A stretch of 64,000 nucleotides of DNA, from assembly GCA_028673005.1 (NCBI GenBank), contig CM054117.1, forward strand, positions 372,001 through 436,000, read 5' to 3'. The notes under the pieces are model-generated. The model did no database searches. It had not been told where the DNA came from and was given only the letters and a program-made list of their open reading frames with translations. Positions 5,177 to 58,119 of this stretch are shown here, in pieces. Within the stretch, counting starts at the first letter, position 1, and the number at the start of each line of letters is the position of its first letter. Both the position numbers and the translations under genes were made by a program. Source of the stretch: Tanypteryx hageni (lineage: Eukaryota > Arthropoda > Insecta > Odonata > Petaluridae).

Positions 5177-5790
5177 TTAAAGGTTCCAAATAATTGTTTA
5201 AATATTTTATACTTAAAAACCAAGAATTCCATCGAGTGGTTATTGGTGTTGGAAAAAGCATTGCTGGGAGATTAGGATAATTGTCCTGAAGAAAATGTGC
5301 ATAGGATGATCTTAATTTTCGTTAATTAATGAATGCGATTTTAGTTTTACTCACTATTTCATTTAAATTATACAATTTCTTAATGAAGATATTTCCAATA
5401 AGATTAATTTTATGTGGCCAGCATGTAAAGTGAAGAATATTATCTCCGAGCAACACTTTTAAACTCTTAAAACATGCTATCATGTAAGCAGCAGAATCAG
5501 ATACAAATCCAACTACATTACCGTAATCTATATCATAATCTTTCAAGGCATCTACAATAGCTTGACAGCATGTAATCCACTATAACAACTATTTTTTTGT
5601 CTTTCAAATCACTTTTTATGTAATTTTTCATTTCTGTGCAATACTTCGGCAGATAAAGTTTTCTCAAGCAATCTGGAGAAGATAGATCTCCTGACCCTTT
5701 AATATACTTGGAAAAATATTCCCTTACTGCTGAATTATCCAGTTTATGCAAAGGAATGTTCGCATTAACCCTTTAGCTGCATCAAGATAA
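5177..5790 (-). pseudogene. hAT transposase relic, N-terminal/catalytic part (copy 1)
   Basis: Minus-strand frames encode KYIKGSGDLSSPDCLRKLYL, a break after KKIVVIVD, then the segment with FVSDSAAYMIACFKSL and LHFTCWPHKINLIGNI. These match CGBP1-like hAT transposases. Compared with the second copy at 45345-46074, this copy lacks about 120 bases immediately after the first catalytic Asp, removing the ETSD motif. It forms the outer end of a roughly 4 kb segment repeated in inverted orientation at 42167-46208. Confidence 0.75.
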
Positions 5791-6433
5791 AATATTTTTA
5801 TTCCCTGAAATATGTTAAAACTCCATTAAAAAATAAAATGTTATAATTGGATTTTTTTTGTTACTTCTTATGTAAATGGGTTTGAGGCATACATATATAG
5901 CAGTGAAATGGATTAAATAAATTTTTTGTTGTTAAATGTTAACTTTTTTGGTAGAAAATTGTTAATTTCATGTAAATATTTTTTACGTTAGACTTGTGCT
6001 AAAATCGGCAGTATTGAACTCTGATTATGGGTAAAAACCTACCCCAAATATAAACTTATAGCCTATATACAAAATTTAGCATGTTTATCTCATTATTTGC
6101 ATTGAATAGTTGCCAACATTTACCCATTTTTGTTAAAATTACATAATGGTACCAGCAACTAACTTCTGCTATGGGACAGAATGTAGATTTGCATCACAGA
6201 TGCTTGCCGCATGAAACGCATTTCCTAGCAACAGGCTACCTCTGTTTCTGTTACCTTAGCATATGGCTTATGAAAAAAAAAGCTATTTGGGTTAGCAGGA
6301 ATGTTGTAACTTAAAAGAAACCATAACAAAGATTCTTTTTAACCTTTTATTCACAGATTAGAAAATAATAAAGGTAGTAAATCATAAAAAGGTATTTTAA
6401 AGTAATAATAAAACATTTTGTGAAATTTATACA

Positions 6434-8941
6434 TATATAGAGAGAGTAATTATGCTCGGAGATATATGGGTGGGAGTAAAACGAGAAGGCACGGAAAGGG
6501 TCCTTGGACCATTTGGTGACCCAAGAGTGAATGATAATAGTGAAAGCTTGGTGAATGTATGTATGGAAATGGGATTGTTTGTCTCGAACACATGGTTCAA
6601 GCACAAGTCAATCCACTTGTATGCATGGACAAGAGGGGAAGCGAAGAGTGTGATAGATTTTGTTGTGTATGATGAACGGTTGAGGGAGCATATGAATGAT
6701 ACGATAGTTGTGAGAGGTGCGGAATGTGGATCAGACCATTATTTAGTGATCTCTAGAGTAGATCTTGGGAGAAAATGGATTGTGAGAAAGAGGAAAGGGG
6801 AGAAGATAACTAGAGTAAAAGTGGAAAGATTGCAAGAGCAAATGAATAGGTGGGAATATGAAAGTGTGCTAAAAGAAAGGCTGATGGCCGAAGAGAGTGA
6901 ATGGAAGAAGGAAATGAGAGAAGAGAATGTGGAGAAGGCTTGGAACAGATTGAAAAGTATTATCTTGCAGTGTGCTACTAAGGTGTGTGGGACTGCAGTT
7001 GTTGGAACAATGAGAGGTGATGCATGGTGGAATGAGCGAGTTAAAGTGGCTGTGAATAAGAAAAAGGAGGCATAAGTGAGAATGATTGCTGCTAAGAATG
7101 AAAATGAGCAAAAGGCACTGTATGAATTGTATAAAGAGAAAAGGAGAGCTGCAAAAAATATTGTGAAAGAGAGTAAAGAACAATTGCGGATGAATGAAGC
7201 TGAGAAAATGCAGAATGATTTTGAGGGGAATAAGAAGTTGTTCTGGAAATGGGTGAAGAGAGCAAGGCAAGGAGTGAGTAAGGGTGTGAGCGGAATTCAA
7301 GGAAAGTATGGTAATATGGTGTGGAATGAGAGTGATGTAAGGGAGTGTTGGAAAAAGTATTTTGAAGAGTTGTATGGAAATGTTGTGAATGGGTCTAAAA
7401 ATCCGAGTGAATCTGTTGGAGTGAATATTAATGAATTTGAGGGGATTAGTAAGAACGAGGTAGTTAAAGCAGTGAATATGTTGAAAAATGGAAAAGCTGC
7501 AGGTGTGGATGGCATAACGGGAGAGATGTTGAAGTATGGAGGTGATTTGCTTATGTGTAAGGGAGATAGGACTGAATGTAAGAATTATAGAGCGATTAGT
7601 TTGCTGAGTATACCTGGAAAGGTATATGGGAAAGTTTTGATTGAAACAGTACAAAAGGTAACTATGGATAAAATGTGGGGAGTGCCTAGAAGGGGTTGCA
7701 CTAACCAAATATTTGCCCTACAGCAAGTGGTTGAGAAGTGCATGGATGTAAGAAAGAAAGTGTACTGTGCATTTGTTGATCTAGAGAAAGCATATGACAG
7801 AGTGAATCATAATCAACTGTGGAATGTTCTGAGCGAGTATGGAGTGAATGGTTGGTTGCTGAATGCTATAAAGGTAGTGTATACTGGAAGTAGGGCATGT
7901 GTAAGGGTGAATAGCATGATGAGTGATTGTTATAGAGTTGAGCAAGGTGTATGACAAGGATGTGTCATGTATCCCTGGTTATTTAATGTGTTCATGGATA
8001 AATGTATGAGACAGGCATGTATGGATATGGTGGGTGTTAAGGTTGGTGGAGAGAATGTTCGTGTACTTTTGTATTCTGATGATGCTGTGTTAATGGCTGA
8101 GAACCCAGGAGAATTGCAGAGAATGTTAGATAGCCTGCATGATACGACAGTGAGAATGGACTTTAGGATAAATGTGTCCAAAACCAAGGTAGTTGTGTTC
8201 GATCGGGAGAATGAGGTGAACGACTGTTAATTTAGCATAAATGGTGGAACGATTGAGGTAGTGGATGAATTTGTATACCTTGGTAGAATGTTTAGTAAAA
8301 ATGGTCGAGTATATGGGGAAATCAAAAGGAGAGTGAATGCTGGTAGAAAGGTGGCAGGGAGTGTGTGGTCGATTGCAAAGAATGAATGGTTGTCAAAAGA
8401 AGCGAAAATGTCTGTATACAAGACTGTTTTAATGCCTACCTTGCTGTATGGCAGTGAAACATGAGTGTGTCAGGAGAAGCATAAAAGTAGTTTGAATGCG
8501 GTTGGGATGGGATACATGAGAAGAGTTTGTGGAAAATCTAGGAGGGACAAAGTAAGGAATAATTGGATGATGAACAAATGTGGTATGAAAGCTAGTGTGA
8601 CAGATCTGTATGAGAGAGGTGTGCTGAGGTGGTTTGGGCATGTAGAAATAATGGAGAAGTGTAGAATCACCAAACAAATATATGAAGGAAGAGAGAATGG
8701 CGAGAGAGGGAGGGGCAGACCGCGCAAGATTTGGTTGGATGTGGTTAGTGAGACTCTGAGAAAAAGGGACGTGAAAAGTATGAGGAATAAAAGGAAATGT
8801 GTGACTCAGTGTATGAGTGTAAGTGAAGCAAAAGAAGTGTGCAAGGATAGAAGTGTGTGGAGGAAGGTGATGAGTTGGTAATAGGCAGACATATGGCATG
8901 GCTTACCCCACAAGGGGAAGCGTCAAGGTGTGTTGTTGTTA
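6434..8941 (+). pseudogene. RTE-type LINE, 5'-truncated copy A
   Basis: The ORF covers the end of an apurinic endonuclease domain and the reverse transcriptase. SDHYLVISRV near 6740 is the C-terminal endonuclease motif. Reverse transcriptase motifs include KNGKAAGVDGI, FVDLEKAYDRV, and YSDDAVLMAENP (catalytic YXDD) near 8070. The domain order matches RTE-clade proteins annotated as craniofacial development protein 2-like. In-frame stops occur at 7073-7075, 7952-7954, 8228-8230 and 8462-8464. Copy B shares all four. The copy begins abruptly at AGAGTAATTATGC; copy C continues upstream of that point. The 3' end carries a (TTG)n-type tail, typical of RTE elements. Confidence 0.9.
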
Positions 8942-24326: not shown

Positions 24327-24985
24327 AAACTACTACCTGGCCACAAGTTAAGGGGATTCTCGAGGAGAATTACGTTATTCGGCGCACTCTAGATTTTTAT
24401 GCGAGCGCGATGTTTAATTCAAAACAAAATAAGGACGAAGGTATAGCGTCTTGGGGCAGCCGAATGGATGGAATGCAGACGGACCTGCGAGACGCGGCGG
24501 CGCGGAGAGTTACTAGAGAGGAAGAAGTAATCGGGGCTATGGCATTAGTAAATTATTTGGCAAAGGCATGTTTTGTGCAAGGGTTGGAGAACGATCGCAT
24601 CCAAACCATAGTGAGAAGCAAGGGCGACATTTCATTTCCTGACGCGGTGGAGGTAGCGCTGGAAGAAGAGAGCGCCATTTTGTCTTTAAAGGGAAAAAGA
24701 TATGCCGGAGATGAGAAAGCCCAAATTAGGTGTGAGAATTGTGGGAAATTGGGACACATTTCTTCTAGGTGTTTTATGAAACAAGCAAAGGTGGCTACGG
24801 AGAGAGTAATAAAATATTCGGAGGGAATTCAATGTTTCAATTGCGGAAGGAATGGTCATATGGCTAGGGAATGCCGAGATAAGAAGTACATTCTAAATAA
24901 GAGTCGAGCCGACAGAGGGTCCTCGGAGGATGGAGATAATGGTGACCGGGGAACGAGAAAAGCCTTCAAGAGGGCAGAGATATAG
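24327..24985 (+). pseudogene. Gypsy A gag: capsid fragment and two CCHC zinc knuckles
   Basis: The frame is open from 24327, before the first ATG at 24410, and shows capsid-like sequence (TWPQVKGILEENY), so the 5' end of gag is lost at the fold-back junction. The C-terminus has two nucleocapsid zinc knuckles, CENCGKLGHISSRC and CFNCGRNGHMAREC, each CX2CX4HX4C. They are followed by a basic and acidic tail. Gag would coat the retrotransposon RNA. The reading frame itself is intact from 24327 to its stop at 24985. Confidence 0.85.
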
Positions 24986-25066
24986 CAGATAAACCAAGGA
25001 AGGCAACTAAGTGTCCAAGGGAGTGACTCGCTCACGTTCGGTTGCAAAGAAAGTGAAAGCGGAAGA

Positions 25067-25869
25067 TTGAGTTTTCTTTTAGACACAGGGGCTGACGTCA
25101 GTTTAGTTAAAATGAATGCTCTTCGGAGAGGAACGGAATATTTCCCTGATGATAATACGCTATTAAAAGGGATCACTGAGGGTCACGTAAAGACGAAAGG
25201 GATAGTGGACCTTAGCTTAAGCGCGAAAGGGAAAACAGCGAAGTTGAGTTTTCAACTAGTGAATGATTCAAGACTTTCACTAGAATTCGACGGAATAATG
25301 GGAAGAGATTTGTTGGAAGAGCTTGGAGCCGTAATCTATTATGAGCAAAGACAGGTTTATATGAGGGGATTGGTTTTAAAATTTGATGCTAAAGAAGATT
25401 CCAAGGATGACTCACCAAAAGAGGCCACAATAAAGGTCCCGGCCCGATGTAAATGCATTGTGGAAATTCCCACGGAAAGCAAAGGAGAAGGGATATTAGG
25501 AAATACAGAACTAGATCGCGGAGTCTGCCTCGCGGGATCCTTAACGATCGGAAGAGGGGGGAAATGCATAGCCAGCGTGGTAAATACCACGGAATAGGAG
25601 GTTGGAATAAATATTTCTCCAAGAAAATTAGAGGAACTTATTCCCGGGGAAATTGAGAGTGCCGTAAAGTCTAATAACCGCGTTCCGCAGAGAAATTATT
25701 TAAAAGATTTCCTGCGCGTCGACCATTTGAGCAAGAAAGAGAAGGAAGATTTTTTGATCTATGCAAAAAATATCGTGAGATATTTTACTTACCTGGGGAC
25801 TCCTTAACCTGCACTACGGCTACTTTACATGATATTCCGACGCCGTCGCGGGAAAATTTCAACGCGAAG
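25067..25869 (+). pseudogene. Gypsy A protease and start of pol
   Basis: LLDTGADVSLVK near the start is the retroviral-type aspartic protease active site, and IMGRDLLEELG near 25300 is its flap/ILG-like distal motif. The frame ends at 25597; pol-type linker sequence continues in other frames (PGEIESAVKSNNRVPQRNY and a LTCTTATLHDIPTPS stretch). It runs to 25869, where the virus-like element is inserted. Frame changes after 25597 break the polyprotein. Confidence 0.8.
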
Positions 25870-25874
25870 TACTA

Positions 25875-26412
25875 TGGAATTATATGTCCTGGGCCCCCCC
25901 CCCACCACAAATTTTATTGCATTATTGCAGCCGCCATCTTGGATTTATGACGTCACATCCGGTCACGTGACCAACCTGTGGCGCCACCACTCGGAGAAAG
26001 TTGGAACTAAGAACAAGTGCCGTTCGAAAAGCAATGTTGTCAAGTGAGTTTCGATATATCGAACAGTTCAGTGTTGCCAAAAACTAGTGAATCGCAAAAG
26101 CGCATTCATGTTGAAAAATTGAATGGCGTAAATAAGCACTGTGGCAGTTGATGACTGCTTTGCGAAATTGCATGGGGTGGCATCATTGTGGAGGAAAATA
26201 TTGAACGAATACGAAATAAGTAACTTTTTATATTGTTGTCCGAATAGCTCAGTGGGTAGAGCTGCGACATTAAGATTCAAAGGCCCAGGGTTCAAATCCC
26301 TGTTAGGACAATTTTTTTCAGGTTTTACGCGAAATATGTAGACTTGCTTTTGTGAATATTAACACGGAAAGGTGTAACATTCAAGGGGTGAAATAAAAAA
26401 CATAGGTATAGG
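25875..26412 (+). repeat. Left terminal inverted repeat of the virus-like element
   Basis: The sequence matches the reverse complement of 31575-32086. Identity is high over the outer 440 bases and then diverges, with GGGGTGAAATAAAAA as a last shared phrase. It contains a C10 homopolymer near 25894, GACGTCACATCCGGTCACGTGACC-like CRE/E-box palindromes (TGACGTCA-like at about 25949, CACGTG at about 25964) and a tRNA-like gene. Confidence 0.9.
26238..26310 (+). tRNA. tRNA-like gene in left TIR
   Basis: The acceptor GTCCGAA pairs with TTAGGAC except for one G-A mismatch. The D arm is GCTC-AGTGGGTA-GAGC and also supplies an A box; the T arm is CAGGG-TTCAAAT-CCCTG and supplies a consensus B box (GGTTCAAATCC). 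The total is 73 nt with discriminator A and no encoded CCA. In the anticodon position the loop ATTAAGA would give UAA with U33, but the anticodon stem (GCGAC/TTCAA) barely pairs and there is no long leucine variable arm. A T7 run follows at about 26313, a good RNA polymerase III terminator. It may be a true tRNA, a pseudogene, or a tRNA-like element gene. Confidence 0.65.
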
Positions 26413-26417
26413 TTAAC

Positions 26418-27201
26418 TCAAGTATTTATTGACATTTGTTTACAATTTTCAATCACATTCTGTTCTTTTAAATAAAAAAAATCGTGCTCTTCTTTAGGAT
26501 CGTCACCTTTTTCCCATGAATATATGCTCACACCACATTTACAGCATACGGTGATGTCCTCATAACCAGTAAAAATAAATCCTAAATTAGCCATTTTGGT
26601 AATATTTAAAAATATCTTTTTTGGGAAAATCGTTAAACGTTATAAATCTAACATGTTCCCTATCTAAATTAACATTGCTCTGAAACCATTTCCTTAGTGA
26701 TTCACAATTGTTCGTTGCACAAATGACTTCACCATTTGTATGTTGAGGTAGCATGCAATATCTACCCATTGATGGTAGTTGTTTAATCGAGGGGCATCCG
26801 AAAACTTGTACATCGATGACTTAGTTTCCCAAAAGTGAGGAAAGGAATTTAACTTTTTGTAATCCCTTTACAAAGATTAAATGATAGTTTGAAATGTATT
26901 TGTTTAAAACTCGTTGGAAATCCTCATGATGAACTTCCCCATCATATAATGCAATTCTGTGATGATTATGAGCTAACCAAGTGTTTTCTCGTTTTAGTGA
27001 CAAATCCTTTGGGCAGTCAAAAACCCACGATTGAGAGCAATTGCGATCGGTATCACAAATTGCAAGTTCTCTGACTACGAATTCATTACAGCTATTGAGA
27101 TACGCTTGAAAATCCACTATACATTTACTCAATCGGAGGACTTTAAATGGAATACGGTTTACGGGAGTTTTACTTCCATCGCCAGGGACCGACTCCATCA
27201 C
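26418..27201 (-). pseudogene. Nuclease-like protein running into a BIR (IAP-type) domain
   Basis: On the minus strand an N-terminal region (27201-26821) contains CIVDFQAY, FVVRELAI, ENTWLAHNHH and LIFVKGLQKVKFL. After a single in-frame TAA at 26821-26823 the same frame continues VIDVQVFGCPSIKQLP and ATNNCESLRKWF to 26587. The layout recalls a DEDD-type RNase H-fold nuclease, but the DxE motif is DxQ here, so that is inference. The final segment, after a frame change at about 26595, reads MANLGFIFTGYEDI then CCKCGVSIYSWEKGDDPKEE and His: a BIR zinc-binding domain. CX2C and His are present, but the last Cys ligand position is Glu. BIR domains inhibit caspases in IAP proteins. The stop and the frameshift make it a pseudogene. 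Confidence 0.65.
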
Positions 27202-27322
27202 TCACACTCACGGTTTGCGAGGTCATTAAACCCAACGCCAGGGACCTAATCGACCACATACACAGAGATGAGCAGTTTACACGGTTTCAACCCGATCCCA
27301 GTGACTGTCACCTCTTTCACAT

Positions 27323-28056
27323 TCATCCGATAATTTTATCAGATAGCGAGCAATGTAAGGGAATTTCAAGTCTCAAACGTTCGTAGTCGAGTTTGCTCCC
27401 CTCAGGCTTTTCCAAGTTATCGACGTTTTCGATACCGATTACACCTGACACTTCAATAAACTGTTCGTAAAAATAGTCTACGTTTATCCGTTCGTTGTCT
27501 AGATTGTCAAAAGCCAGTGCTATACATTTCACACATAGTAACAAATTATTCCATTCCTCAGCATTCAAGGTCACCGAGCATTGATCACCTCTAATGAGCA
27601 CATGTTTTTTTCCAAAATAATTCACTAAACTCACGGGAAATTTGAGCGGAATCTTTTTTTGTCCCAAATTAAAATAATCAGATATAAATTTCTCTTGAGT
27701 AACAAATTCACACCAATCGGTATAGTTTAGTTCAACCGATCCCTTGTTCACTTGAGTTAACTGTACGATCACTTCACAGAATCTCTCAGGATCGAAACCG
27801 ATGCTGACAATTCTTGTTTTAGCAGAGTTCAAGAAAAACACAGTTTCTAGTAGCAACTGGGTGGCACCACACACTTTCTTCTTCTTCTTCTGCACAGTTT
27901 TCGGCTGTCTGTTAGATTTTGAAGTGGGTGATGTTTGCAGACTTGATGGAGGTGAGGGTCGCTTCTCGGGGGTTTCCAGACCGGATGGTGGTGGCCGTGA
28001 AGATACCGTCTGCGTTTAGGAAGGATGGGAGACTCTGCACTTGCTGGTTTCTGCAT
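27323..28056 (-). pseudogene. Unidentified element protein, possible tandem PC4-like ssDNA-binding domains
   Basis: The frame 27895-27323 has no ATG at its start and extends open upstream to about 28014. A candidate ATG at 28056 lies in another frame, so one frameshift near 28000 is likely. The N-terminus is Pro/Ser-rich, then a lysine cluster (QKKKKKV). The body repeats a pattern twice: VELNYTDWCEFV and VTLNAEEWNNLL, each after beta-rich sequence and before a helix-like stretch. This recalls the PC4 coactivator motif (a strand ending in SLNxxxWxxL followed by a helix). PC4 folds bind single-stranded DNA. I do not recognise a closer homologue, so the function is inferred. Confidence 0.4.
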
Positions 28057-28097
28057 GGCAACTGATAATAACTAGGTGGAATGCCTGGATATATGCT

Positions 28098-28602
28098 TTA
28101 GGAGGAGGCGGAAGGGAGTGAGGAGGTGGAACATTCGACATTGGTCGAACAAGGATCTACGTCGACCTTCAAGGTTAGGAATTTCAGCCAATGAAATAAG
28201 CAGTACGCATTTCTTAATGCGCAGTCACTTTTGCGTAAGCGGTGGCACGGATTCAAGCAGGAAATGGAGGGGAAGGAAAGGTCATCTGGTGAAGGGCAAT
28301 CTAAATCTTTCCTCATGCTTATGAAAGTGCGTCCGGTGAGGTCAGAGAGGAAGCTACATTTTTCCTCGTCCTTAATGATAGTTTCCAGGCAGGAGAGCAG
28401 CTCGGTGTAGGGAATGAATCCGTTTGCGAACGATGTCTCGTTACACAGGAGAACGTTGCTCGATTTCGCCTTCCTGCCTCCACCGATCCATTTGTTCGGA
28501 CTTTGGAAGCTGCACCAAAAGACTCTCGGAATCCACCTCCACCGCAGCCAATTCTTTCACTCTTCGGTCCGAGCCCCACTCTAAGTCGATGATGAGCCGC
28601 AT
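28098..28602 (-). pseudogene. Second nuclease-like paralogue of the virus-like element, no BIR
   Basis: Starting at ATG 28602, the minus strand reads MRLIIDLEWGSDRRVKELA, then EQMDRWRQEGEIE. A frame change near 28440 leads to ANGFIPYTELLSC, then LDCPSPDDLSF and SDCALRNAYCLFHWL, ending at 28098. The order (D-x-E strand, KELA, later CPS and C-A-L-R-N-A-Y) matches the gene at 26418-27201 (VRELA, GCPS, CATNNC), so the two are paralogues. Here the DxE of motif I is kept. A TATA-like AATAAATAG lies upstream at about 28655-28664. It may be a DEDD-like nuclease. The frameshift makes it a pseudogene here. Confidence 0.5.
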
Positions 28603-28728
28603 CTTGACAGTTTCGAGTCAGAATCTCGAATGATGACTATCGCGGATAGCGGTGCTATTTATTCTCGAACAGCAACTCTGCGACCAAGGATGGCAACGTC
28701 TTTCTTTCCTGGTGCTCCCAGACTCTAG

Positions 28729-29148
28729 TTAAAAGAGTTGAGCGACTCGACAGTCGTTGAATTGTGGGAGGGAAAATAGGTTGAGGTATTGGGTGAGGGT
28801 TTTACCAGTGGACTTGTAGAGTGCATAGAGACAACAGAATTCCACGCAAACGTCCGAACGAAAGCTCTAAAGTTGAACTGAATTTCGAGCGAGAGAGAAC
28901 GGTTCTAGAAATTTTGATATCGAATGGGCGAGTGGTGGATAACCATACGAATCGAAATATTCTGCCTTTTGCTTATTTAAAATGTGCACCGCGATCCAAT
29001 GGCTTCCCGGTCGAGTAGAAGCGTCTAAATTTATCACGTAGATTCCAGGCGAGGGTGAGGGTAAACTATCTGAAGGAAACACCCCACGAAACACTTTTCT
29101 CGTGCGTAGATCGCGACTAAGTAAGTTATATATATCTAACGTGTTCAT
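28729..29148 (-). pseudogene. Adenain-like cysteine protease, frameshifted
   Basis: The frame starts ATG at 29148, three bases after the stop of the capsid-like gene, suggesting one transcript. It contains FRGVFPSDSLP, the His motif GSHWIAVHI and the acidic motif EYFDSYGYPP. Its frame ends at 28867, and the C-terminal catalytic Cys region (VCVEFCCLYALY) lies in another frame ending at 28729. Adenain family (C5) proteases mature capsids and are typical of adenoviruses, Polintons and adintoviruses. The total of about 140 codons is shorter than usual. One frameshift near 28870 inactivates it. Confidence 0.75.
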
Positions 29149-29151
29149 CGC

Positions 29152-29902
29152 TTATGCAAAATTCGTGATGATGTTTCGACTTTTATCTATTTCCAAAGAG
29201 GCGTCGTATTCCGCGTAAACGATGCACGTTATGGTTTTTTCGAGCTGGTTATCGAAGCCAGCTTCGATTCTCACGGTACCCATATCCATCAAACCGACAT
29301 ATTCTTCGTTACCCGAACCGTCAGGTGTTAGATCGAAAGCTAAAATGAAATATCCATGTGCGAACATGTCCAAGGTTATTTGATTACCTTTATCACCGTG
29401 ATGCACGCCGATTCCCGAAAACATAGAACGGTATGCTTGCGTCCAGCATTTTTGATTGGTGAAATTTGTGGAAATGCCTTGCGGTGGCATTCGCTCACCG
29501 TTGACGATGAGAAAGAAACTAGCCAAAGAATAATGAGAGAACGCGAACGGATTTTTGTCCCTCCTTCCAACGTACGCATCGTTATCGACCATGCTGAAAA
29601 CTATTTTGTTCGGAAGCTGTCCTGTTATGACGTTATCTACAAAAATAGTTTGATTTCCTCGAGGGACGGTGAGCGTCTTAACTTCCACTCGCTTGAAAGG
29701 ATATATCGCGTTGCTTTGCTCCAACGCTCTGGAATGAGCCAATAAAATTGAGGGGTTTATATCGTTATGCTCGGCGTATAATGTAGCATCGAGAATTTTC
29801 AGCACGGAAGTACCCGCAGCATCCTCCTTGATGTAGAAACTCGGTTTTGCGAGCGTTAAGGTTTCGACGTTGATCTCTCGGGGAAACGGCTCTTGAAATT
29901 AG
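29152..29902 (-). pseudogene. F54H12.2-family protein, putative major capsid, N-terminally truncated
   Basis: The minus-strand frame is open from about 29902, with no ATG until well inside, and ends at 29152. Motifs such as NGERMPPQGIS, YRSMFSGIGVHHGDKG, YFILAFDLTPDGSG, TCIVYAEYDASLEIDKSRN match the C-terminal half of the protein family annotated in arthropods as F54H12.2-like. I recall that family as associated with Maverick/Polinton-type elements. A double jelly-roll capsid role is inference. About half the usual protein is missing, and a TATAAATA motif sits just upstream (29961-29968), so the 5' coding region seems deleted. Gene order capsid then protease fits the assignment. Confidence 0.7.
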
Positions 29903-29960
29903 CGTACGTTGATTATGGAATGAAACCAATAACTGATGACTTCTTAGATTCTTAGCACCT

Positions 29961-29968
29961 TATTTATA
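29961..29968 (-). promoter_or_regulatory. TATA-like box upstream of the capsid/protease genes
   Basis: TATAAATA on the minus strand, about 60 bases before the open capsid-like frame. It is correctly oriented to drive the minus-strand gene block. No initiator was identified. Confidence 0.4.
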
Positions 29969-30099
29969 CCAGTCTAAGGTCTATCCAACGCAGTATGACG
30001 CCGCCCTCCTACCCCAACACCTCGGCATTTAAGGTAGGTCAGATATGGTTTGCTAATACAATAGGATGTGAAATTCAACCCCCCCCCCCCTCCCTCCAC

Positions 30100-30410
30100 A
30101 CACGCGCGCGCTTTAGGTGAGTCATCCGCCTCTCCTTATTATTCTTAACCTGCTTTCCCTACACATCACCCAAGCGATTGAGACATGTCGTACATGGTTC
30201 GATAAGTATTTTATTCACGTACTCTCCCCACCCCCTCCCCTTCTCACATTTATGCGCTTTGGGTGTGTCATACGGGCTATGGCAGATAGATTATTCTTAA
30301 CCGGCTTTCCCTACACAACACCCAAGCGATTGAGACAAGTCGTACGTGATTTGATTAATGTGTTTTTCCACTACTCCCTCCCCTCACACTTCCGCGCCTT
30401 ATGTATATCA
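30100..30410. repeat. About 150-bp tandem repeats upstream of the rightward promoter
   Basis: The phrase ATTATTCTTAACCTGCTTTC with AAGCGATTGAGACATGTCGT recurs at about 30138 and 30289. A second phrase (CGCGCTTTAGGTGAGTCAT and variants) recurs near 30106, 30252 and 30394. The period is about 146-151 bases, with 2.5 copies. It lies between the divergent minus and plus gene blocks, so it could be an enhancer or replication region. No long protein there is convincing. Confidence 0.6.
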
Positions 30411-30437
30411 TACTGGATATCATACCAACTATTTCAG

Positions 30438-30445
30438 TATATAAG
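30438..30445 (+). promoter_or_regulatory. TATA box of the rightward virus-like gene
   Basis: TATATAAG, followed by CAGCGCG, about 78 bases upstream of the first GT-AG intron. Orientation and spacing suit transcription toward 31005. Confidence 0.45.
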
Positions 30446-30515
30446 CAGCGCGATTATCGTAGAAAATCACTCCTCTTCGACTACGAGTAAGAGCACCAAC
30501 AGCTGCAGATATTCG

Positions 30516-30836
30516 GTAAGCATAACATTCATTTCTTTTATAACTTTTTGATCACTTCTCCCTCTGAGAAAGCTTTGACTTTATTCTCGCGGATGGTCTA
30601 TTTTCTTTAGAATACCTTCAACTCCGCTACCACCACCATTACTGTCTCCGCCACCGTCTCCGCTACAGCAACAGATATTCCGTAAGCATAGCATTCATTT
30701 ATTTATAACTTTTTTCATCACTTCTCACTCTGGGAAAGCTTTGACATTACGCTCATGAATGGTCTCTTTTCTTTAGACAAATCCTCACCACCTTCGCCTA
30801 CTCCACTACCGCCGCCGCCACTCTCCGAATTTTACA
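30516..30836 (+). repeat. Duplicated exon-intron unit in the 5' leader
   Basis: Introns 30516-30610 and 30682-30776 are both 95 nt, are near copies (GTAAGCATARCATTCATTT through TTTTCTTTAG), and each follows an exon ending CAGATATTC. A third donor, GTGAGT, lies at 30837, and a TTTTTCCTTTTTAG acceptor ends at 31004 just before an ATG. Exons between them are rich in ACC/GCC/ACT triplets. A tandem duplication of one exon plus its intron is the simplest explanation. Confidence 0.6.
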
Positions 30837-31004
30837 GTGAGTAGTTATATTTGCCTAAATTATGTCTAGCTTGAATGGAAAAAGAATTATATGTATTTCG
30901 CTGTAAAGATAAATGTCCTCAGAGTTTACGTAAGTGCTTAAAGTTTATTAGGCTCTGTTCATATTAAAAAACTCATTGACTCATCAAACTTTTTTCCTTT
31001 TTAG

Positions 31005-31300
31005 ATGGAAGCAATTTCAACGAAACTTCTGATGAAAAACGGAACTATTACATTTATCAAAAAGGAAACATTAGAAGAGGATATCGTTTATAACATCGAA
31101 AAATTTGAGAAAATAAAAACTAAATATGGGGAGGCGTTGGTGGCGGTAATAACAACAGATAAAGACTGGGATTAAAAAAAAAGATTTTCCTACCTAACAA
31201 ATACAACATTTTAACTGGGGATGAAATACAAATTTATAACAATGCAAATGATAAAAAAAAAATTAATTTTAAAATTAATAAAAAATTAAATTTCCATTAA
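31005..31300 (+). pseudogene. Small rightward gene of the virus-like element, possible OB-fold protein
   Basis: ATG follows directly after a splice acceptor. The first 56 codons include LEEDIVYNIEKFEKIKTKYG and ALVAVITTD, then TAA at 31173 beside an A9 run. Past that run another frame continues IFLPNKYNILTGDEIQIYN to a stop at 31298-31300, which keeps the beta-strand pattern going. A one-base slip in the homopolymer is likely. Short proteins with a conserved TKYG phrase occur in related arthropod elements as I recall, and the strand pattern suggests an OB-like ssDNA-binding fold. Function is not established. Confidence 0.45.
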
Positions 31301-31574
31301 CAAAATACATTAATAAAATTAATGAACTCTTTCAATGTTGTTTCATTTTCATTAATTTTAAATCACCCCCATACCTGTTACCAATCGGAAAAAATTTTAA
31401 CTCGATTAAATACCACCGCCTCGGAAACTCAACGAATAAAGAAAATTGCCACCGAAAAGATATAACGATATATCCGACGAAGAGACAAGAATATATTTCT
31501 GGAAAGGAAAAATTCAGTTAGATAAAAAAGGATGTTTAATAATAAATGTTGAGTAATAAAAAATATAAATAAAT

Positions 31575-32086
31575 ATTTGTTAAGCTATACCATTGTTTTT
31601 ATTTCACCCCTTTTTCTGTCACACTTTTTCGTGTTAATTTATCTTAAAGTGTCCGAACAGGGATTTGAACCCTGGGCCTTTGAATCTTAATGTCGCAGCT
31701 CTACCCACTGAGCTATTCGGACATCAATATAAAAAGTTACTTATTTCGTATTCGTTCAATATTTTCCTCCACAATGATGCCACCCCATGCAATTTCGCAA
31801 AGCAGTCATCAACTGCCACAGTGCTTATTTACGCCATTCAATTTTTCAACATGAATGCGCTTTTGCGATTCACTAGTTTTTGGCAACACTGAACTGTTCG
31901 ATATATCGAAACTCACTTGACAACATTGCTTTTCGAACGGCACTTGTTCTTAGTTCCAACTTTCTCCGAGTGGTGGCGCCACAGGTTGGTCACGTGACCG
32001 GATGTGACGTCATAAATCCAAGATGGCGGCTGCAATAATGCAATAAAATTTGTGGTGGGGGGGGGGGCCCAGGACATATAATTCCA
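31575..32086 (-). repeat. Right terminal inverted repeat of the virus-like element
   Basis: Reverse complement of the left TIR, ending AATTCCA before TACTA. It has an 11-base G run (C10 in the left copy) and a few substitutions, mainly inside the inner 90 bases. It carries the second tRNA-like gene. Confidence 0.9.
31650..31722 (-). tRNA. tRNA-like gene in right TIR
   Basis: Inverted copy of the left TIR gene. Here the acceptor stem is perfect (GTCCGAA/TTCGGAC), the D arm, T arm, A box and B box are unchanged, and the anticodon arm shows the same weak pairing. Unlike the left copy there is no T4 run directly downstream on its strand (CTTTAAG only). Retention of a paired acceptor stem argues for recent function or recent TIR exchange. 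Confidence 0.65.
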
Positions 32087-32430
32087 TACTACTACGCGAT
32101 TAACACTCGCTCCTATCGAATTCCGGAAGCGCTAAAAGACGAAGTCCGTAGACAAACGCAAGAAATGCTCAAGGATGGGATTATCACGCAAAGTAAAAGT
32201 CCTTGGAACTCGCCGATATTAGTCGTCCCGAAGAAATCTGATGCCTCTGGACAGAAAAGGTGGAGAATAGTAGTAGATTACAGAAAGTTAAATGAAGCTA
32301 CTATCGAGGACGCATTCCTAACATCACCGAAATATTGGACCAACTGGGAAAATCAAGGTATTTTAGTACTCTAGACTTGGCAAATGGGTACCATCAAATC
32401 CCAATGAAACCTGAGGACCAATGTAAGACA
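32087..32430 (+). pseudogene. Gypsy A reverse transcriptase, N-terminal fragment
   Basis: The frame resumes Gypsy A pol after the virus-like element: INTRSYRIPEALKDEV, MLKDGIITQSKSPWNSPIL, RIVVDYRKLNEATIED, and after a frame change STLDLANGYHQIPMKPED. These are reverse transcriptase motifs 1-3 of Ty3/Gypsy elements. It ends at about 32430, where the LTR of Gypsy B begins, before the YXDD motif. Confidence 0.85.
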
Positions 32431-32811: not shown

Positions 32812-33429
32812 TTAGGTCCAAGCAATATGGCACTTATAGTCCTTCAGGTATCCTGGAGCCCTCTTTATTCTCACTGATGCTCTTGTAGCCTGCTGCAGTG
32901 ATGATAAAGTTTCATCACTCTGGGCTGACATTGCGGCAGCAGATGATGGTTCACCATTATCTGAAGCACCAATGCTGGTAACACCTCGAGCATGATTTGT
33001 CTGCAATTCATTTGGAGGGATCTGCTCTCCTACTGGAACTTCAGGCATTGAGGGACTAACACTTTTTACAAAATTATCAAAAGGAAAAGGATAAAAAACA
33101 TTATTTGGATATGACACACTATCTCCAGAATCTTTAAAACTATCTGATGAGGAAGGGAGCACTGCTGATGTGTTACGATGCATCAACTGGTTTACATGGC
33201 GCCTTTCAGTTCTCCCATCTTCACATGCAACTTCAAAATTGCAGGGACCCTTGGCTGCTTTTATGTATCCCGGTAACCATAGCTTTCCACCTGCATAGCT
33301 ACGGAAATATACAGGACCTCCTTCTGCAAAAAATCTAAACTTATTAATTGGCATATTAACAGCATTTACGACTTTCTCCTCCCTCTCAGAAGATTTTAGC
33401 CATGCCGCTGGATGTAATTTATCCAGCAT
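32812..33429 (-). pseudogene. Gypsy B integrase C-terminal region
   Basis: Continues the integrase after a frame change at about 33430: TMLDKLHPAAW, then GGPVYFRSYAGGKLWLPGYI and RRHVNQLMHR, typical of the Gypsy integrase C-terminal domain, which binds DNA. The Ser/Pro-rich tail to 32812 is common in K02A2.6-like elements. Confidence 0.8.
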
Positions 33430-35645
33430 TGTATACGCCGGCCCATCAACATCTCTGCCGGGCTTCTACCAGTGGAAGTGCTAGGAGTGGTTCTCAATGT
33501 AAGCAAGACATTTGCCAACTGCAGCTTCCATTCTGCTGGTGGTAGCTTTTTTAGACAGTTTTTTAAGGTCTGCACCACCCTTTCTGCTTTGCCATTTGAT
33601 GTAGGGTGATAAGGTGCAGCTTTAAGATGGATAATGCAATTCTTTCTGACAAAACTAAGAAATTCATCCGACCTGAAGGCTGGTCCATTGTCAGTTACCA
33701 GCTGGTCAGGAATGCCATGGGTGGCAAACCATCTTCTAAGGCAATTGATGGTGGTTAAGGAGCTCATGGACCCTTTTGTCTCCTCGACTTCTATCCATTT
33801 TGAGTATGCATCCACCAGCACTAGAAATGTATGGCCATGGGTTGGTCCTGCAAAATCAAGGTGAAGGCACGACCATGGCTTTTCTGGAACACTCCAAGGG
33901 ATGACAGGTGCCCTCCTTGGATCTGGCCGCATCTCACAGCACCTAGGGCAAGACAATACCAACTCTTCAATGTCCTTATCAAGGCCAGGCCACCAGACAT
34001 AACTCTGTGCCAATGCCTTAGTGCGGACGACTCCCCGATGCACCTTATGTAGAAGCTGCATCACATTCCCTCTCAGCTTCTCTGGGATCACGACCCTGCT
34101 ACCCCGGAGGACGCATCCCTTATGAACCGTGAAAGTGCCTGCTGGCTCTCTGAAGAAAAGCTTTGCCTCCTTGGATCTGGAGGGAGCACTCCACCTTCGA
34201 AGTAGCCCCTCTCGCACCTCTGCCAACAGTTTGTCATCACTGGTGGCTTCTGCTACAGCCCCAGCTGTCAATGGTGAGTCCAATGGAGCTTCTTCTAGGA
34301 GCATCACACCTGCTGGCTCAGGGAAAATTGTCTCATCATCTACCTCCTTGCAGTCAAATGGAAGGCGACTGAAAAAATCTGCATTTGCATGCTGCTTCCC
34401 TGGGCGGTATGACAATTTAAAATCATAATTAGATAGCATTAAGGACCAGCGAAGCATCCGTGGAGACAAGACATCTGATATGGGCTTTCCTGGCTTAAAA
34501 ATTCCTAACAGGGGCTTGTGGTCTGTTATAATCTCAAAAGTGCGCCCCAACAAATACATACGAAATTTCATAATCCCAAATATAATAGCCAGTGCCTCTT
34601 TGTCCAATTGCGAGTAATTTTTCTCACTTCCTCTAAGAGTTTTTGAGGCATATGCCACTGGTCTCTCCTGGTTATCACTATACACATGAGACAACACTGC
34701 CCCAACTCCATATGGTGAGGCATCACATGACACCGTTATAGGGCACTTAGGGGAGTAATGTGCAAGCACTGCACCTGAAGTCATAATAGACTTAGCATAA
34801 GTAATGCAGGCCTCTTCCTTTTCTGTCCATCTCCATTGGACACCTTCACCTAGCAACGCATATAAAGGAGCAAACCTAGTGGCCTTCTGAGGGAAGAATC
34901 TATCATAATAATTTATATAGCCCAGGTAGGCTTGAAGTTCAGCCACATTTGTTGGGGATGAAGCCTCTAGTAATGCTTTCACTTTACTATCCGTTGGCCT
35001 AATGCCATCTGCTGAAACTAAATATCCCACAAATTCCAAACTTCTAGCAGAAAATTGGCATTTACTCAGCCTTAACCGAAAACCTGCCCCCCTTAATCTT
35101 TCTAATACTCCTCTAACTCGATGCCATAGCTAGCCCTCTGATGATGCTTGACATAGAACATCATCCATATATACAATTACTCCCTCCAGGCCAGCAAGGA
35201 TAGTTTCCATGGTACATTGAAAAATTGCAGGAGAAGAGGAGAGCCCTGGGGGCAACCGAAGCATTCTGTACAACCCCCTATGGGTATTAAGAGTTAACAC
35301 CCGTGACTTTTCCTCATCCACCGAAACCTGCATAAAGGCTTCAGATAAGTCAAACTTGGTAAACCATTTGCCTCCTGCCAATTTACTTAAAAGCTCGCCC
35401 ACAGTTGGGAGTGGGTAAATCTGTCTCATGCATTGCGGATTTATTGTGGAGCTGTAGTCACCACAAATTCTAATGGTTTTGTTACGCTTGACTACATTTA
35501 CAGTAGGGGTGGCCCACTCTGAAAAATCAACCCTCTCTAGGATGCCCTTCTTCACCATCCTATCTATTTCCTCACTCACTTTCTCAACCATTGCGAGTGG
35601 AACCGGCCTAGCTCGGCGAAAAACAGGATTCGCGTCAACTCGCAA
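33396..35645 (-). pseudogene. Gypsy B pol: reverse transcriptase, RNase H, integrase
   Basis: From 35645 the frame shows ILERVDFSEWATPTVNVVK, FTKFDLSEAFMQVSVDEE and catalytic YMDDVLCQ. A single TAG at 35130-35132 interrupts it, then the same frame continues FVGYLVSADGI, the RNase H region (VSCDASPYGVGAVLSH, ITDHKPLLGIF), and the integrase zinc finger and core (LHLDFAGP, VTDNGPAF, HPTSNGKAERVV, the D,D,E triad). It loses frame at about 33430. Function would be copying and integrating the element. One nonsense mutation and one frameshift inactivate it. Confidence 0.9.
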
Positions 35646-35737
35646 CTGAACTCGCGCGGGGGGACCCGTGTATTTTCCTAAGGCAGATTCGAAAACATCC
35701 CTAAAGTTTGAAATTTGGGGTGGTAAGTTGGACTGCT

Positions 35738-36443
35738 CTACGGAGTCACTCCCTGAAATTTGACACCCAAATGCTCAAACCAATTACGGCCCATCAGGCT
35801 TGGACCATCTCCTGCCATCACCACCAAAGGGAGTTTTGCCTGACGCGGAGGCAAACACACACTGACCAAAATTTCACCCCTAACAGGCAATTCTTCTTTT
35901 GACCAGGTATTTAGCATTACGGTTGGCTTAGTTAGAGAGGGGTATGTGCCTGAACATGGAGTTGTAAGTTTCTCCCCCAATTAAAGAAAATCCTGCACCG
36001 GAATCCACCTCCATCGACATGGATTTTCCCTCAGCCCACACAGTCACATTCATCGGCGGCGGTGCAGGAGCCGACGGTATGTGGAAAAGCAATGAATGCA
36101 ACCTTTCACTACCGTCCCCCTCATTTTTATTCGGTGCCGAGCCCGCTAGGCCTAAATTATGCGTGGCTGACCTACGCTGCCCGCGAAAACGGTTTCCTTA
36201 ATGTGGCCTCGAATTCTGGAGCGATCCACCGCCTCCCGGCCGTCCGCTCACGTTAGCACTGGGTTGCCTTTTTTTCTTGAAACAGGCCCTGTCGATATGG
36301 CCTACCTTTCTACAGTACCTGCAGATTGTCCTTTTATAGACGCACGAGGCCGCATTATGCGGTCCTTCGCAGCGATAACATGGTCCCTCAACCGGCGGCT
36401 GGGATGGCGGTCCTCTATACCTGCCCTCCCCTTTATGCTGCAT
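35738..36443 (-). pseudogene. Gypsy B late gag and protease
   Basis: 36443-36198 encodes nucleocapsid knuckles CYRCEGPHNAASC and CRYCRKVGHIDRAC. Between 36130 and 35990 another frame carries MEVDSGAGFSLIGG, the aspartic protease active site. 35980-35738 carries GPSLMGRNWFEHLGVKF, the distal protease motif. Frameshifts separate the pieces. Upstream gag is absent, since the frame begins inside the LTR-gag deletion junction. Confidence 0.85.
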
Positions 36444-42166: not shown

Positions 42167-44670
42167 CAACAACAACGCACCATGATGCTTTCCCTTGTGG
42201 GGTAAGCCGTGCCATATGTCTGCCTGTTACCAACCCATCACCTTCCTCCGCACACTTCTATCCTTGCACACTTCTTTTGCTTCACTTACACTCATACACT
42301 GAGTCTCACATTTCCTTTTATTCCTCATACTTTTCACATCCCTTTTTCTCAGAGTCTCACTAACCACATCCAACCAAATCTTGCGCGGTCTGCCCCTCCC
42401 TCTCTCGCCATTCTCTCTTCCTTCATATATTTGTTTGGTGATTCTACACTTCTCCATTATTTCTACATGCCCAAACCACCTCAGCACACCTCTCTCATAC
42501 AGATCTGTCACACTAGCTTTCATACCACATTTGTTCATCATCCAATTATTCCTTACTTTGTCCCTCCTAGATTTTCCACAAACTCTTCTCATGTATCCCA
42601 TCCCAACCGCATTCAAACTACTTTTATGCTTCTCCTGACACACTCATGTTTCACTGCCATACAGCAAGGTAGGCATTAAAACAGTCTTGTATACAGACAT
42701 TTTCGCTTCTTTTGACAACCATTCATTCTTTGCAATCGACCACACACTCCCTGCCACCTTTCTACCAGCATTCACTCTCCTTTTGATTTCCCCATATACT
42801 CGACCATTTTTACTAAACATTCTACCAAGGTATACAAATTCATCCACTACCTCAATCGTTCCACCATTTATGCTAAATTAACAGTCGTTCACCTCATTCT
42901 CCCGATCGAACACAACTACCTTGGTTTTGGACACATTTATCCTAAAGTCCATTCTCACTGTCGTATCATGCAGGCTATCTAACATTCTCTGCAATTCTCC
43001 TGGGTTCTCAGCCATTAACACAGCATCATCAGAATACAAAAGTACACGAACATTCTCTCCACCAACCTTAACACCCACCATATCCATACATGCCTGTCTC
43101 ATACATTTATCCATGAACACATTAAATAACCAGGGATACATGACACATCCTTGTCATACACCTTGCTCAACTCTATAACAATCACTCATCATGCTATTCA
43201 CCCTTACACATGCCCTACTTCCAGTATACACTACCTTTATAGCATTCAGCAACCAACCATTCACTCCATACTCGCTCAGAACATTCCACAGTTGATTATG
43301 ATTCACTCTGTCATATGCTTTCTCTAGATCAACAAATGCACAGTACACTTTCTTTCTTACATCCATGCACTTCTCAACCACTTGCTGTAGGGCAAATATT
43401 TGGTTAGTGCAACCCCTTCTAGGCACTCCCCACATTTTATCCATAGTTACCTTTTGTACTGTTTCAATCAAAACTTTCCCATATACCTTTCCAGGTATAC
43501 TCAGCAAACTAATCGCTCTATAATTCTTACATTCAGTCCTATCTCCCTTACACATAAGCAAATCACCTCCATACTTCAACATCTCTCCCGTTATGCCATC
43601 CACACCTGCAGCTTTTCCATTTTTCAACATATTCACTGCTTTAACTACCTCGTTCTTACTAATCCCCTCAAATTCATTAATATTCACTCCAACAGATTCA
43701 CTCGGATTTTTAGACCCATTCACAACATTTCCATACAACTCTTCAAAATACTTTTTCCAACACTCCCTTACATCACTCTCATTCCACACCATATTACCAT
43801 ACTTTCCTTGAATTCCGCTCACACCCTTACTCACTCCTTGCCTTGCTCTCTTCACCCATTTCCAGAACAACTTCTTATTCCCCTCAAAATCATTCTGCAT
43901 TTTCTCAGCTTCATTCATCCGCAATTGTTCTTTACTCTCTTTCACAATATTTTTTGCAGCTCTCCTTTTCTCTTTATACAATTCATACAGTGCCTTTTGC
44001 TCATTTTCATTCTTAGCAGCAATCATTCTCACTTATGCCTCCTTTTTCTTATTCACAGCCACTTTAACTCTCTCATTCCACCATGCATCACCTCTCATTG
44101 TTCCAACAACTGCAGTCCCACACACCTTAGTAGCACACTGCAAGATAATACTTTTCAATCTGTTCCAAGCCTTCTCCACATTCTCTTCTCTCATTTCCTT
44201 CTTCCATTCACTCTCTTCGGCCATCAGCCTTTCTTTTAGCACACTTTCATATTCCCACCTATTCATTTGCTCTTGCAATCTTTCCACTTTTACTCTAGTT
44301 ATCTTCTCCCCTTTCCTCTTTCTCACAATCCATTTTCTCCCAAGATCTACTCTAGAGATCACTAAATAGTGGTCTGATCCACATTCCGCACCTCTCACAA
44401 CTATCGTATCATTCACATGCTCCCTCAACCGTTCATCATACACAACAAAATCTATCACACTCTTCGCTTCCCCTCTTGTCCATGCATACAAGTGGATTGA
44501 CTTGTGCTTGAACCATGTGTTCGAGACAAACAATCCCATTTCCATACATACATTCACCAAGCTTTCACTATTATCATTCACTCTTGGGTCACCAAATGGT
44601 CCAAGAACCCTTTCCGTGCCTTCTCGTTTTACTCCCACCCATATATCTCCGAGCATAATTACTCTCTCTA
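42167..44670 (-). pseudogene. RTE-type LINE copy B (3' part)
   Basis: Inverted near-identical copy of 6434-8941, with the same 5' break point, the same endonuclease remnant and reverse transcriptase, and the same four in-frame stops. A few differences near the 3' end (for example RRKVMGW instead of WRKVMSW). It ends at the same (TTG)n-type tail. It is the distal part of the 42167-46208 duplicated segment. Confidence 0.9.
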
Positions 44671-45344
44671 TATATGTATAAATTTCACAAAATGTTTTAT
44701 TATTACTTTAAAATACCTTTTTATGATTTACTACCTTTATTATTTTCTAATCTGTGAATAAAAGGTTAAAAAGAATCTTTGTTATGGTTTCTTTTAAGTT
44801 ACAACATTCCTGGTAACCCAAATAGCTTTTTTTTTCATAAGCCATATGCTAAGGTAACAGAAACAGAGGTAGCCTGTTGCTAGGAAATGCGTTTCATGCG
44901 GCAAGCATCTGTGATGCAAATCTACATTCTGTCCCATAGCAGAAGTTAGTTGCTGGTACCATTATGTAATTTTAACAAAAATGGGTAAATGTTGGCAACT
45001 ATTCAATGCAAATAATGAGATAAACATGCTAAATTTTGTATATAGGCTATAAGTTTATATTTGGGGTAGGTTTTTACCCATAATCAGAGTTCAATACTGC
45101 CGATTTTAGCACAAGTCTAACGTAAAAAATATTTACATGAAATTAACAATTTTCTACCAAAAAAGTTAACATTTAACAACAAAAAATTTATTTAATCCAT
45201 TTCACTGCTATATATGTATGCCTCAAACCCATTTACATAAGAAGTAACAAAAAAAATCCAATTATAACATTTTATTTTTTAATGGAGTTTTAACATATTT
45301 CAGGGAATAAAAATATTTTATCTTGATGCAGCTAAAGGGTTAAT

Positions 45345-46074
45345 GCGAACATTCCTTTGCATAAACTGGATAATTCAGCAGTAAGGGAATATTTTTCCAA
45401 GTATATTAAAGGGTCAGGAGATCTATCTTCTCCAGATTGCTTGAGAAAACTTTATCTGCCGAAGTACTGCACAGAAATGAAAAATTACATAAAAATTGAT
45501 TTGAAAGACAAAAAAATAGTTGTTATAGTGGATGAAACATCGGATAGAAAAGGTTGTTGTGTTTTTGCAGTATTGTTTAAAACAGTTGAGCCTACAGTGC
45601 ATCAATAAATCTTCCTTGTATCCTGTAATGTTTTGGAAACTGCAAATGCAACCACATGCTGTCAAGCTATTGTAGATGCCTTGAAAGATTATGATATAGA
45701 ATACGGTAATGTAGTTGGATTTGTATCTGATTCTGCTGCTTACATGATAGCATGTTTTAAGAGTTTAAAAGTGTTGCTCGGAGATAATATTCTTCACTTT
45801 ACATGCTGGCCACATAAAATTAATCTTATTGGAAATATCTTCATTAAGATATTGTATAATTTAAATGAAATAGTGAATAAAACTAAAATCGCATTCATTA
45901 ATTAACGAAAATTAAGATCATCCTATGCACATTTTCTTCAGGACAATTATCCTAATCTCCCAGCAACGCTTTTTCCAACTCCAATAATCACTCTATGGAA
46001 TTCTTGGTTTTTAAGTATAAAATACTTAAACAATTATTTGGAACCTTTAACCCTTCAGTGACGGGAGGCATTTA
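45345..46074 (+). pseudogene. hAT transposase relic (copy 2, retains DETSD)
   Basis: Same sequence as copy 1 at 5177-5790 but with about 120 bases more: VVIVDETSDRKGCCVFAVLF and FLVSCNVLETANATTCC are present. It continues through FVSDSAAYMIACFKS, LHFTCWPHKINL and, after a stop, RKLRSSYAHFLQDNYPNLP to NNYLEP, ending at the piggyBac TTAA. The stop after PTVHQ and one after AFIN show it is inactive. Confidence 0.8.
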
Positions 46075-57935: not shown

Positions 57936-58119
57936 TACCCCCATTTTTTTTATTGGTAAATAATTCATCATGTATTTTATTTGGGCATTTTAGGAAATCT
58001 AATATGGTTTGCACCATCTAACAATGAATAAAGTTATTCTGTTCTACAAAGGTAACACTTCTCATCTCAAAAATTAAAGTGTACCTAACCACCACCAGAT
58101 TCTCACTTTTTGGTTGAAT

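Follow-up and report, generated by a model that had tools for sequence, protein, structure and literature searches.

A virus-like element in a 64,000-nucleotide stretch of the genome of Tanypteryx hageni (Odonata; the whole stretch is called the window here and lies at C6:372001-436000, C-numbers being contigs of the same genome) is almost certainly a defective, internally deleted copy of a multi-copy Polinton/Maverick family with adintovirus-like features. The element, at 25868-32093 of the window, is real, as a deletion derivative. Longer relatives are plentiful in this genome, which makes the copy a commonplace remnant of an established type rather than a small element of a novel sort. It belongs to a new family of that type, and the family is of more interest than the copy: these Polintons, present in many copies, have a BIR-domain gene and a dUTPase gene, and their terminal inverted repeats (TIRs) carry a tRNA-like sequence.

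Boundaries and target duplication

The element is 6,226 bp long, with termini AGTACTATGG...CCATACTACT, its limits being set by sibling termini, comparison of the two TIRs, the flanks and empty sites. The TIRs are 447 and 448 bp long (left, 25868-26314, plus strand; right, 31646-32093, minus strand), with 4 mismatches and 1 gap column between them, which bears out the long inverted repeats of about 0.5 kb described in an initial annotation of this DNA. Further in lies a diverged inverted segment (26358-26440, plus strand; partner 31558-31638, minus strand) that pairs at 80% over 84 columns. Flanks and empty sites identify a 6-bp target duplication, ACGCGA, directly outside the element (25862-25867 and 32094-32099, both read on the plus strand), at a site within the pol gene of an old gypsy element.

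The initial annotation had given exact ends with a 5-bp duplication, TACTA, and here it was mistaken. Comparison of siblings gives family termini of AGTAGTAGGG...CCCTACTACT, with variants (in short form AGTA...TACT), and these extend further out than the TGG...CCA ends first proposed. Polinton termini are AG. TACTA (25870-25874 and 32087-32091) is part of the terminus AGTA[C/G]TA. Excision leaves an open gypsy pol frame, as had been claimed, but the restored frame cannot choose between the 5-bp and 6-bp joins, since they differ by 15 bases and both keep the frame. A 117-base query made of the gypsy flanks joined through one ACGCGA had 6 matches, all scored: four are other places, all unoccupied, and the remaining two are the flanks of the element itself, whose alignments share exactly 6 bases of the query. 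The four unoccupied gypsy copies all read straight through the insertion site, fitting the 6-bp version; three are ungapped over 116 bases and mutually identical there, and the fourth has a 1-base gap.

A TACTA duplication is ruled out, as its join would leave 15 bases absent from all four empty sites and the motif belongs to the terminus. A 2-bp TA duplication, which would leave 18 extra bases, is ruled out by the same sibling termini and empty sites. An AGTA[C/G]TA terminus can mimic a 5-bp duplication, and empty sites together with siblings settle such cases.

Longer siblings in the same genome

Searching the genome (1.678 Gb, 1,022 contigs) with the TIR, one of the checks that the initial annotation had proposed, turned up longer siblings that share the element's ends and genes; the best 40 of 642 first-look candidates were scored, and they match at 92-100% identity. 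Sibling interiors were fetched as pieces (given L-numbers here) from ten places and then as 3-kb pieces from six more. The window's gene pieces are 89-99% identical to the siblings tested (94-99% to L010), and the siblings hold these genes in one common order. In the orientation of the window it runs from a TIR with the tRNA-like sequence through the BIR-domain gene, genes Y and X, the protease and the capsid; a 152-codon open reading frame (ORF), a 496-codon ORF, an rve integrase with chromodomain and a stretch with 110- and 181-codon ORFs; an A32-like ATPase, a 221-codon ORF, a family-B DNA polymerase (PolB) and the dUTPase; and, last, a segment of intergenic sequence and repeats, an ORF of 102 codons on the opposite strand, and the second TIR.

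Domain searches identify several of the genes that the window copy lacks. The integrase of L009 matches rve (E 9.3e-15) with a C-terminal chromodomain (E 2.2e-8), and a sibling dUTPase matches at E 1.6e-35. The sibling ATPase gene matches Pox_A32 at E 0.0017, below the cut-off. PolB in L012 was recovered in three pieces (E 6.9e-8, 1.2e-5 and 3.8e-4, the last two below cut-off), along with an Endonuclease VII-like stretch (E 1.4e-5); its N-terminal piece (L012:1819-2298) has no Pfam match, and the 496-codon ORF, considered for the penton or minor capsid protein of Polintons, has none above cut-off. The capsid gene is full-length in siblings.

Target duplications were tabulated, as the annotation had also proposed, for nine copies in which both ends were sought, copies read at one end only being left out. 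Six of the nine have an exact 6-bp duplication: ACGCGA in the window, TACGTG at C1:168242074, GAAGGG at C9:135687217, TAGGCA at C1:13159368, TACGTT at C2:214739007 and CTTGTA at C9:25202637. The five siblings with such a duplication measure 12.8, 13.2, 13.3, 13.4 and 14.6 kb. Around two other siblings the flanks are inverted copies of the same host sequence, over 300 of 300 bp at 100% for L025/L026 (C1:273.69-273.70 Mb) and over 76 bp at 98.7% for L028/L027 (C1:222.38-222.39 Mb).

A single deletion junction

The missing interior was lost at one point, 29856-29859, where mapping on siblings gives the two sides of the window copy an overlap of 4 bases. In L009 the left side can be followed down to 9759 and the right side picks up at 3023, with the same 4-base overlap, so that about 6.7 kb is missing relative to this sibling at a single junction inside the capsid gene. 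Relative to PolB-bearing copies the loss is larger, because L009/L010 themselves have no match to PolB or dUTPase: it starts inside the capsid gene and ends past the dUTPase gene. With four shared bases at the join, the interior was probably lost by microhomology-mediated joining. A 361-base query across the junction (best 40 of 435 candidates scored) is spanned by the window alone; 9 candidates match its right side only and 30 its left side only. No second copy with this junction was seen among those scored, where a non-autonomous subfamily would have several copies sharing one junction at different sites. A single copy is compatible with deletion either before or after insertion.

Polintons rely on a protein-primed polymerase for copying and on an rve integrase for insertion, according to the parts of PMC4046053 and PMC12220804 that were drawn on. 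The window element would have been copied and inserted by the polymerase and integrase of its relatives. It could probably no longer make particles or move alone, although its ends may still be usable in trans by the enzymes of siblings.

Weighing the alternatives

The initial annotation had left two readings side by side, an internally deleted Polinton- or adintovirus-like copy and a distinct, smaller lineage dependent on a helper. The first stands, given longer siblings that carry the missing genes. The second, a satellite lineage with capsid, protease and BIR-domain genes only, moved by the polymerase and integrase of a helper, is very improbable. It would sit well with TIRs that are nearly identical although the genes between them are broken, and with siblings that have spread without PolB (L050 and L009, for instance, have different duplications), but among the 40 scored matches the junction is spanned by the window alone, and since half of the capsid gene is gone and both the protease gene and the BIR-domain gene are broken, there is no gene set left under selection. 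The 5-bp duplication had been offered as a departure from Polintons; the duplication being 6 bp, that argument falls away. Duplications of 5-6 bp appear in the portion of PMC12220804 that was consulted, including one virus with GTTAT, and 5 bp would be no argument against this kind of element in any case.

That the assembly joined two siblings at a short shared sequence is hardly credible. The genome holds many similar copies, and the junction is unique among those scored, as such an artefact would require; yet the two flanks come from a single gypsy copy, show the same 6 bp of duplicated sequence and rejoin in frame, and the window's TIRs pair better with each other (4 mismatches in 447) than the left TIR does with the other 38 scored copies (92-98%).

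Several observations weigh against an internally deleted Polinton. The protease and ATPase matches fall below Pfam cut-offs. No single sibling was shown with every gene intact, and the PolB of L012, which is split over several frames, is itself not intact. The measured siblings are somewhat shorter than the 15-20 kb stated for Polintons. Two of the nine copies in which both ends were sought (L025/L026 and L028/L027) have inverted flanks and no duplication, and for one more (L007/L062) the search pattern did not locate the second end. Since PolB is absent from the window copy and present in pieces in sibling L012, the window copy is a Polinton by descent. An internally deleted copy, and most likely a dead remnant, remains our reading.

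Genes left in the window copy

What remains on the minus strand is half a capsid gene, a broken protease gene, a broken BIR-domain gene and two genes of unknown function. In sibling L010 the frames for the protease, X, Y and the BIR-domain gene are all open, so open versions of these genes exist.

The capsid gene (29152-29859, minus strand), of the F54H12.2 double-jelly-roll type, is represented by its C-terminal part. About 195 N-terminal residues are gone, and the fragment starts at about residue 197 of a relative, P0001. The annotation's assignment of a capsid to the F54H12.2 family is confirmed for this fragment by 33 relatives with E <= 0.001, of which four bear the name 'F54H12.2-like', the best identity being 58%; the claim holds for the C-terminal part of the gene, which is all that is present. 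The named relatives are mostly from dragonflies and damselflies (Ladona, Hetaerina, Ischnura), plus a fly and a gall wasp. An AlphaFold model of the full-length P0001, built with 19 sequences (mean pLDDT, the predicted local distance difference test score, 79.3; predicted TM-score, pTM, 0.81), indicates that this relative is a double jelly roll: its best matches among solved structures are the capsids of Sputnik, PBCV-1 and an iridovirus, with mavirus close behind. Against models of viral proteins, the first match was a Cotesia bracovirus protein (32% identity, with a TM-score of only 0.40) and the second adomavirus LO7. A scan of IMG/VR viral contigs with capsid queries confirmed no relative. 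Directly beside the end of one sibling (L013:9728-9898; C4:195.10 Mb) lies a capsid-gene fragment 77% identical to P0001, which suggests that this sibling landed in a capsid gene belonging to a different Polinton family.

The protease gene (28621-29151, minus strand) is broken by an in-frame stop. The annotation had called it adenain-like, and domain searches agree weakly on an adenain/Ulp1 type, with every match below cut-off (E 0.055 to 0.24): the window piece matches Pfam C48 (E 0.084) and S273R of African swine fever virus (ASFV; E 0.24), and an open sibling gene matches C5 (E 0.055) and C48 (E 0.082). Taken together, these matches point to one protease group.

The BIR-domain gene (26452-27200, minus strand) is interrupted in the window by an in-frame stop and a frame change, and is open over 256 codons in L010. 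The domain itself is firmly predicted, both in the window (frame 26418-26639, minus strand; Pfam E 1.8e-12) and in L010 (E 3.3e-17). A protein search with the 126-residue piece upstream of it found no homologue, and neither did one with gene Y (27323-28071, minus strand), which has 249 codons in L010 and a 230-codon open frame in the window. Gene X (28101-28617, minus strand; 181 codons in L010) has insertions and deletions in the window relative to L010. Beyond the junction lie a segment with internal direct repeats (29910-30840) that is common to siblings at 76-94%, and g102 (31005-31310, plus strand), a 102-codon open frame in L012 with 56 codons open in the window. As the annotation had noted, the element has no polymerase, integrase or ATPase: blastn of the window copy against the siblings' polymerase, integrase, ATPase and dUTPase DNA, with matches of fewer than 80 columns dropped, gave none. 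Comparison with PHROGs and NCBIfam added nothing useful.

A tRNA-like sequence in the terminal repeats

Both TIRs of the window carry a tRNA-like sequence that faces inward. The left one (26238-26310, plus strand) has 6/7 acceptor, 4/4 D, 5/5 T and 2/5 anticodon-stem pairs, and the right one (31650-31722, minus strand) 7/7, 4/4, 5/5 and 2/5. ARAGORN and Rfam call a tRNA in both, at 46.2 and 51.4 bits. Siblings have the same sequence about 370 bp in from one end (for example L009:833-905 and L011:585-657). An Rfam scan of 14 sibling pieces gave at least one tRNA match in 13 and none in L012; of the 15 matches, two are to another tRNA (in L019 and L013), and the match in L028 falls outside that copy. 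The tRNA-like sequence may serve as a promoter for RNA polymerase III (Pol III) or encode a small RNA. The different tRNA-like sequence, which interrupts or adjoins sibling genes (L019:1486-1556, ARAGORN anticodon GGC; L013:2297-2367), is perhaps a short interspersed nuclear element (SINE).

Its placement varies across the family. In the window and L009/L010 it occurs at both ends; in the longest siblings it is at one end only, and in L011/L012 and L027/L028 that is the end with the BIR-domain gene. The TIRs of the window and of L009/L010 are about 99% identical, whereas in L011/L012 and L028/L027 the outer ends share 80-82%. In L009 the left TIR extends over the final third of the BIR-domain gene. 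A simple explanation would be that one end overwrote the other, by conversion or by strand-displacement replication.

The anticodon that ARAGORN assigns, TTA, would read UAA, and suppression of stop codons was considered because two genes in the window have in-frame stops. It was rejected: in the window copies no more than 2 of the 5 pairs of the anticodon stem form, the three anticodon-loop letters differ among siblings (TTA and TAA; a neighbouring copy has TGA), and in siblings the genes are open unaided.

Polymerase loss in the family

A 2,295-bp PolB query from L011/L012 was compared with 16 sibling places whose interiors had been at least partly fetched; with copies chosen by TIR similarity and pieces partial, the resulting fractions are no census. 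The query is nearly fully covered in three of the 16 (L011/L012; L019/L020, where an insertion interrupts it; and L027/L028), and L054 has 76% of it up to the end of the piece that was fetched. In L018, a more distant relative, the match is nearly full but at 70% only, and the remaining places have PolB fragments or no match. L050 is identical to L009 over 1,297 and 1,199 bp, has no PolB, and lies at another site with another duplication, which suggests that polymerase-less copies have spread recently. Three such copies, L009/L010, L050 and L053 (C1:168242074, C2:214739007 and C9:25202637), are near-identical, lack the polymerase and have different 6-bp duplications.

A broader picture, which we regard as unlikely, is that the family spreads largely as polymerase-less parasites of a few polymerase-bearing copies, with ends homogenised repeatedly in a way that spreads a tRNA-like RNA gene serving replication or expression. 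If so, end homogenisation would in one sibling have placed a portion of the BIR-domain gene, too, at both termini, and the PolB-less derivatives would resemble defective interfering genomes, the window element being one extreme product. The family is a place to ask whether Polintons have derivatives of this sort.

Host gypsy and surroundings

Upstream of the insertion, the host gypsy comprises a zinc-knuckle gag, an aspartic protease and the start of the pol frame (24410-25867, plus strand), which resumes after it at 32094-32374 (plus strand). A second gypsy-type element (RNase H, integrase and reverse transcriptase; 32812-36443, minus strand) lies inside the same host gypsy, making the site a nest of insertions. 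Elsewhere, the window has an inverted repeat pair of 3.4 kb at 99.5% identity (5575-8940 and 42168-45533) and a G-rich stretch at 58001-60000 (GC 0.63, GC skew 0.93).

Comparison with known systems

Polintons have long TIRs and 6-bp duplications (PMC8969392, in the part consulted), and the window copy, whose TIRs span hundreds of bp, has a duplication of that length. It shares with Polinton/Mavericks a putative adenain-type protease and a double-jelly-roll major capsid protein, the latter recognised through the P0001 model and present as a C-terminal part only; its siblings add PolB, an rve integrase that has a chromodomain, and a putative A32-like ATPase. The window copy differs in being 6.2 kb long, with no polymerase, integrase or ATPase of its own. 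The measured siblings are 12.8-14.6 kb long and many of those sampled have no PolB; the tRNA-like sequence in the TIR is a further difference.

Adintoviruses, as defined by Starrett et al. 2021 and summarised in a section of PMC11071296, offer a second likeness: an rve integrase with C-terminal chromodomain (found in sibling L009 only), a putative adenain-type protease and a putative hexon-like capsid. Other marks of the group are a PolB with an N-terminal OTU-like domain and a hexon that BLASTp recognises from reference adintoviruses. Anti-apoptotic genes are said to be common in mammal-associated adintoviruses, with which the BIR-domain gene may be compared; the phrases 'inhibitor of apoptosis' and 'tRNA' do not occur in the adintovirus paper's text.

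Deleted Mavericks are common. Mayetiola destructor has 408 fragmented copies with accumulated deletions, by the account in part of PMC8504770, and these are the same kind of remnant. Their consensuses are 0.6-4.5 kb long and have a polymerase or integrase domain only, whereas the window copy retains both ends, the duplication and structural genes. Finally, tRNAs are reported in polinton-like viruses and virophages, with 558 Rfam matches in the collection of PMC12220804, where the section consulted does not place them in TIRs; compared with those viruses, the sequence described here stands apart in its poor anticodon stem and its position in the terminal repeats.

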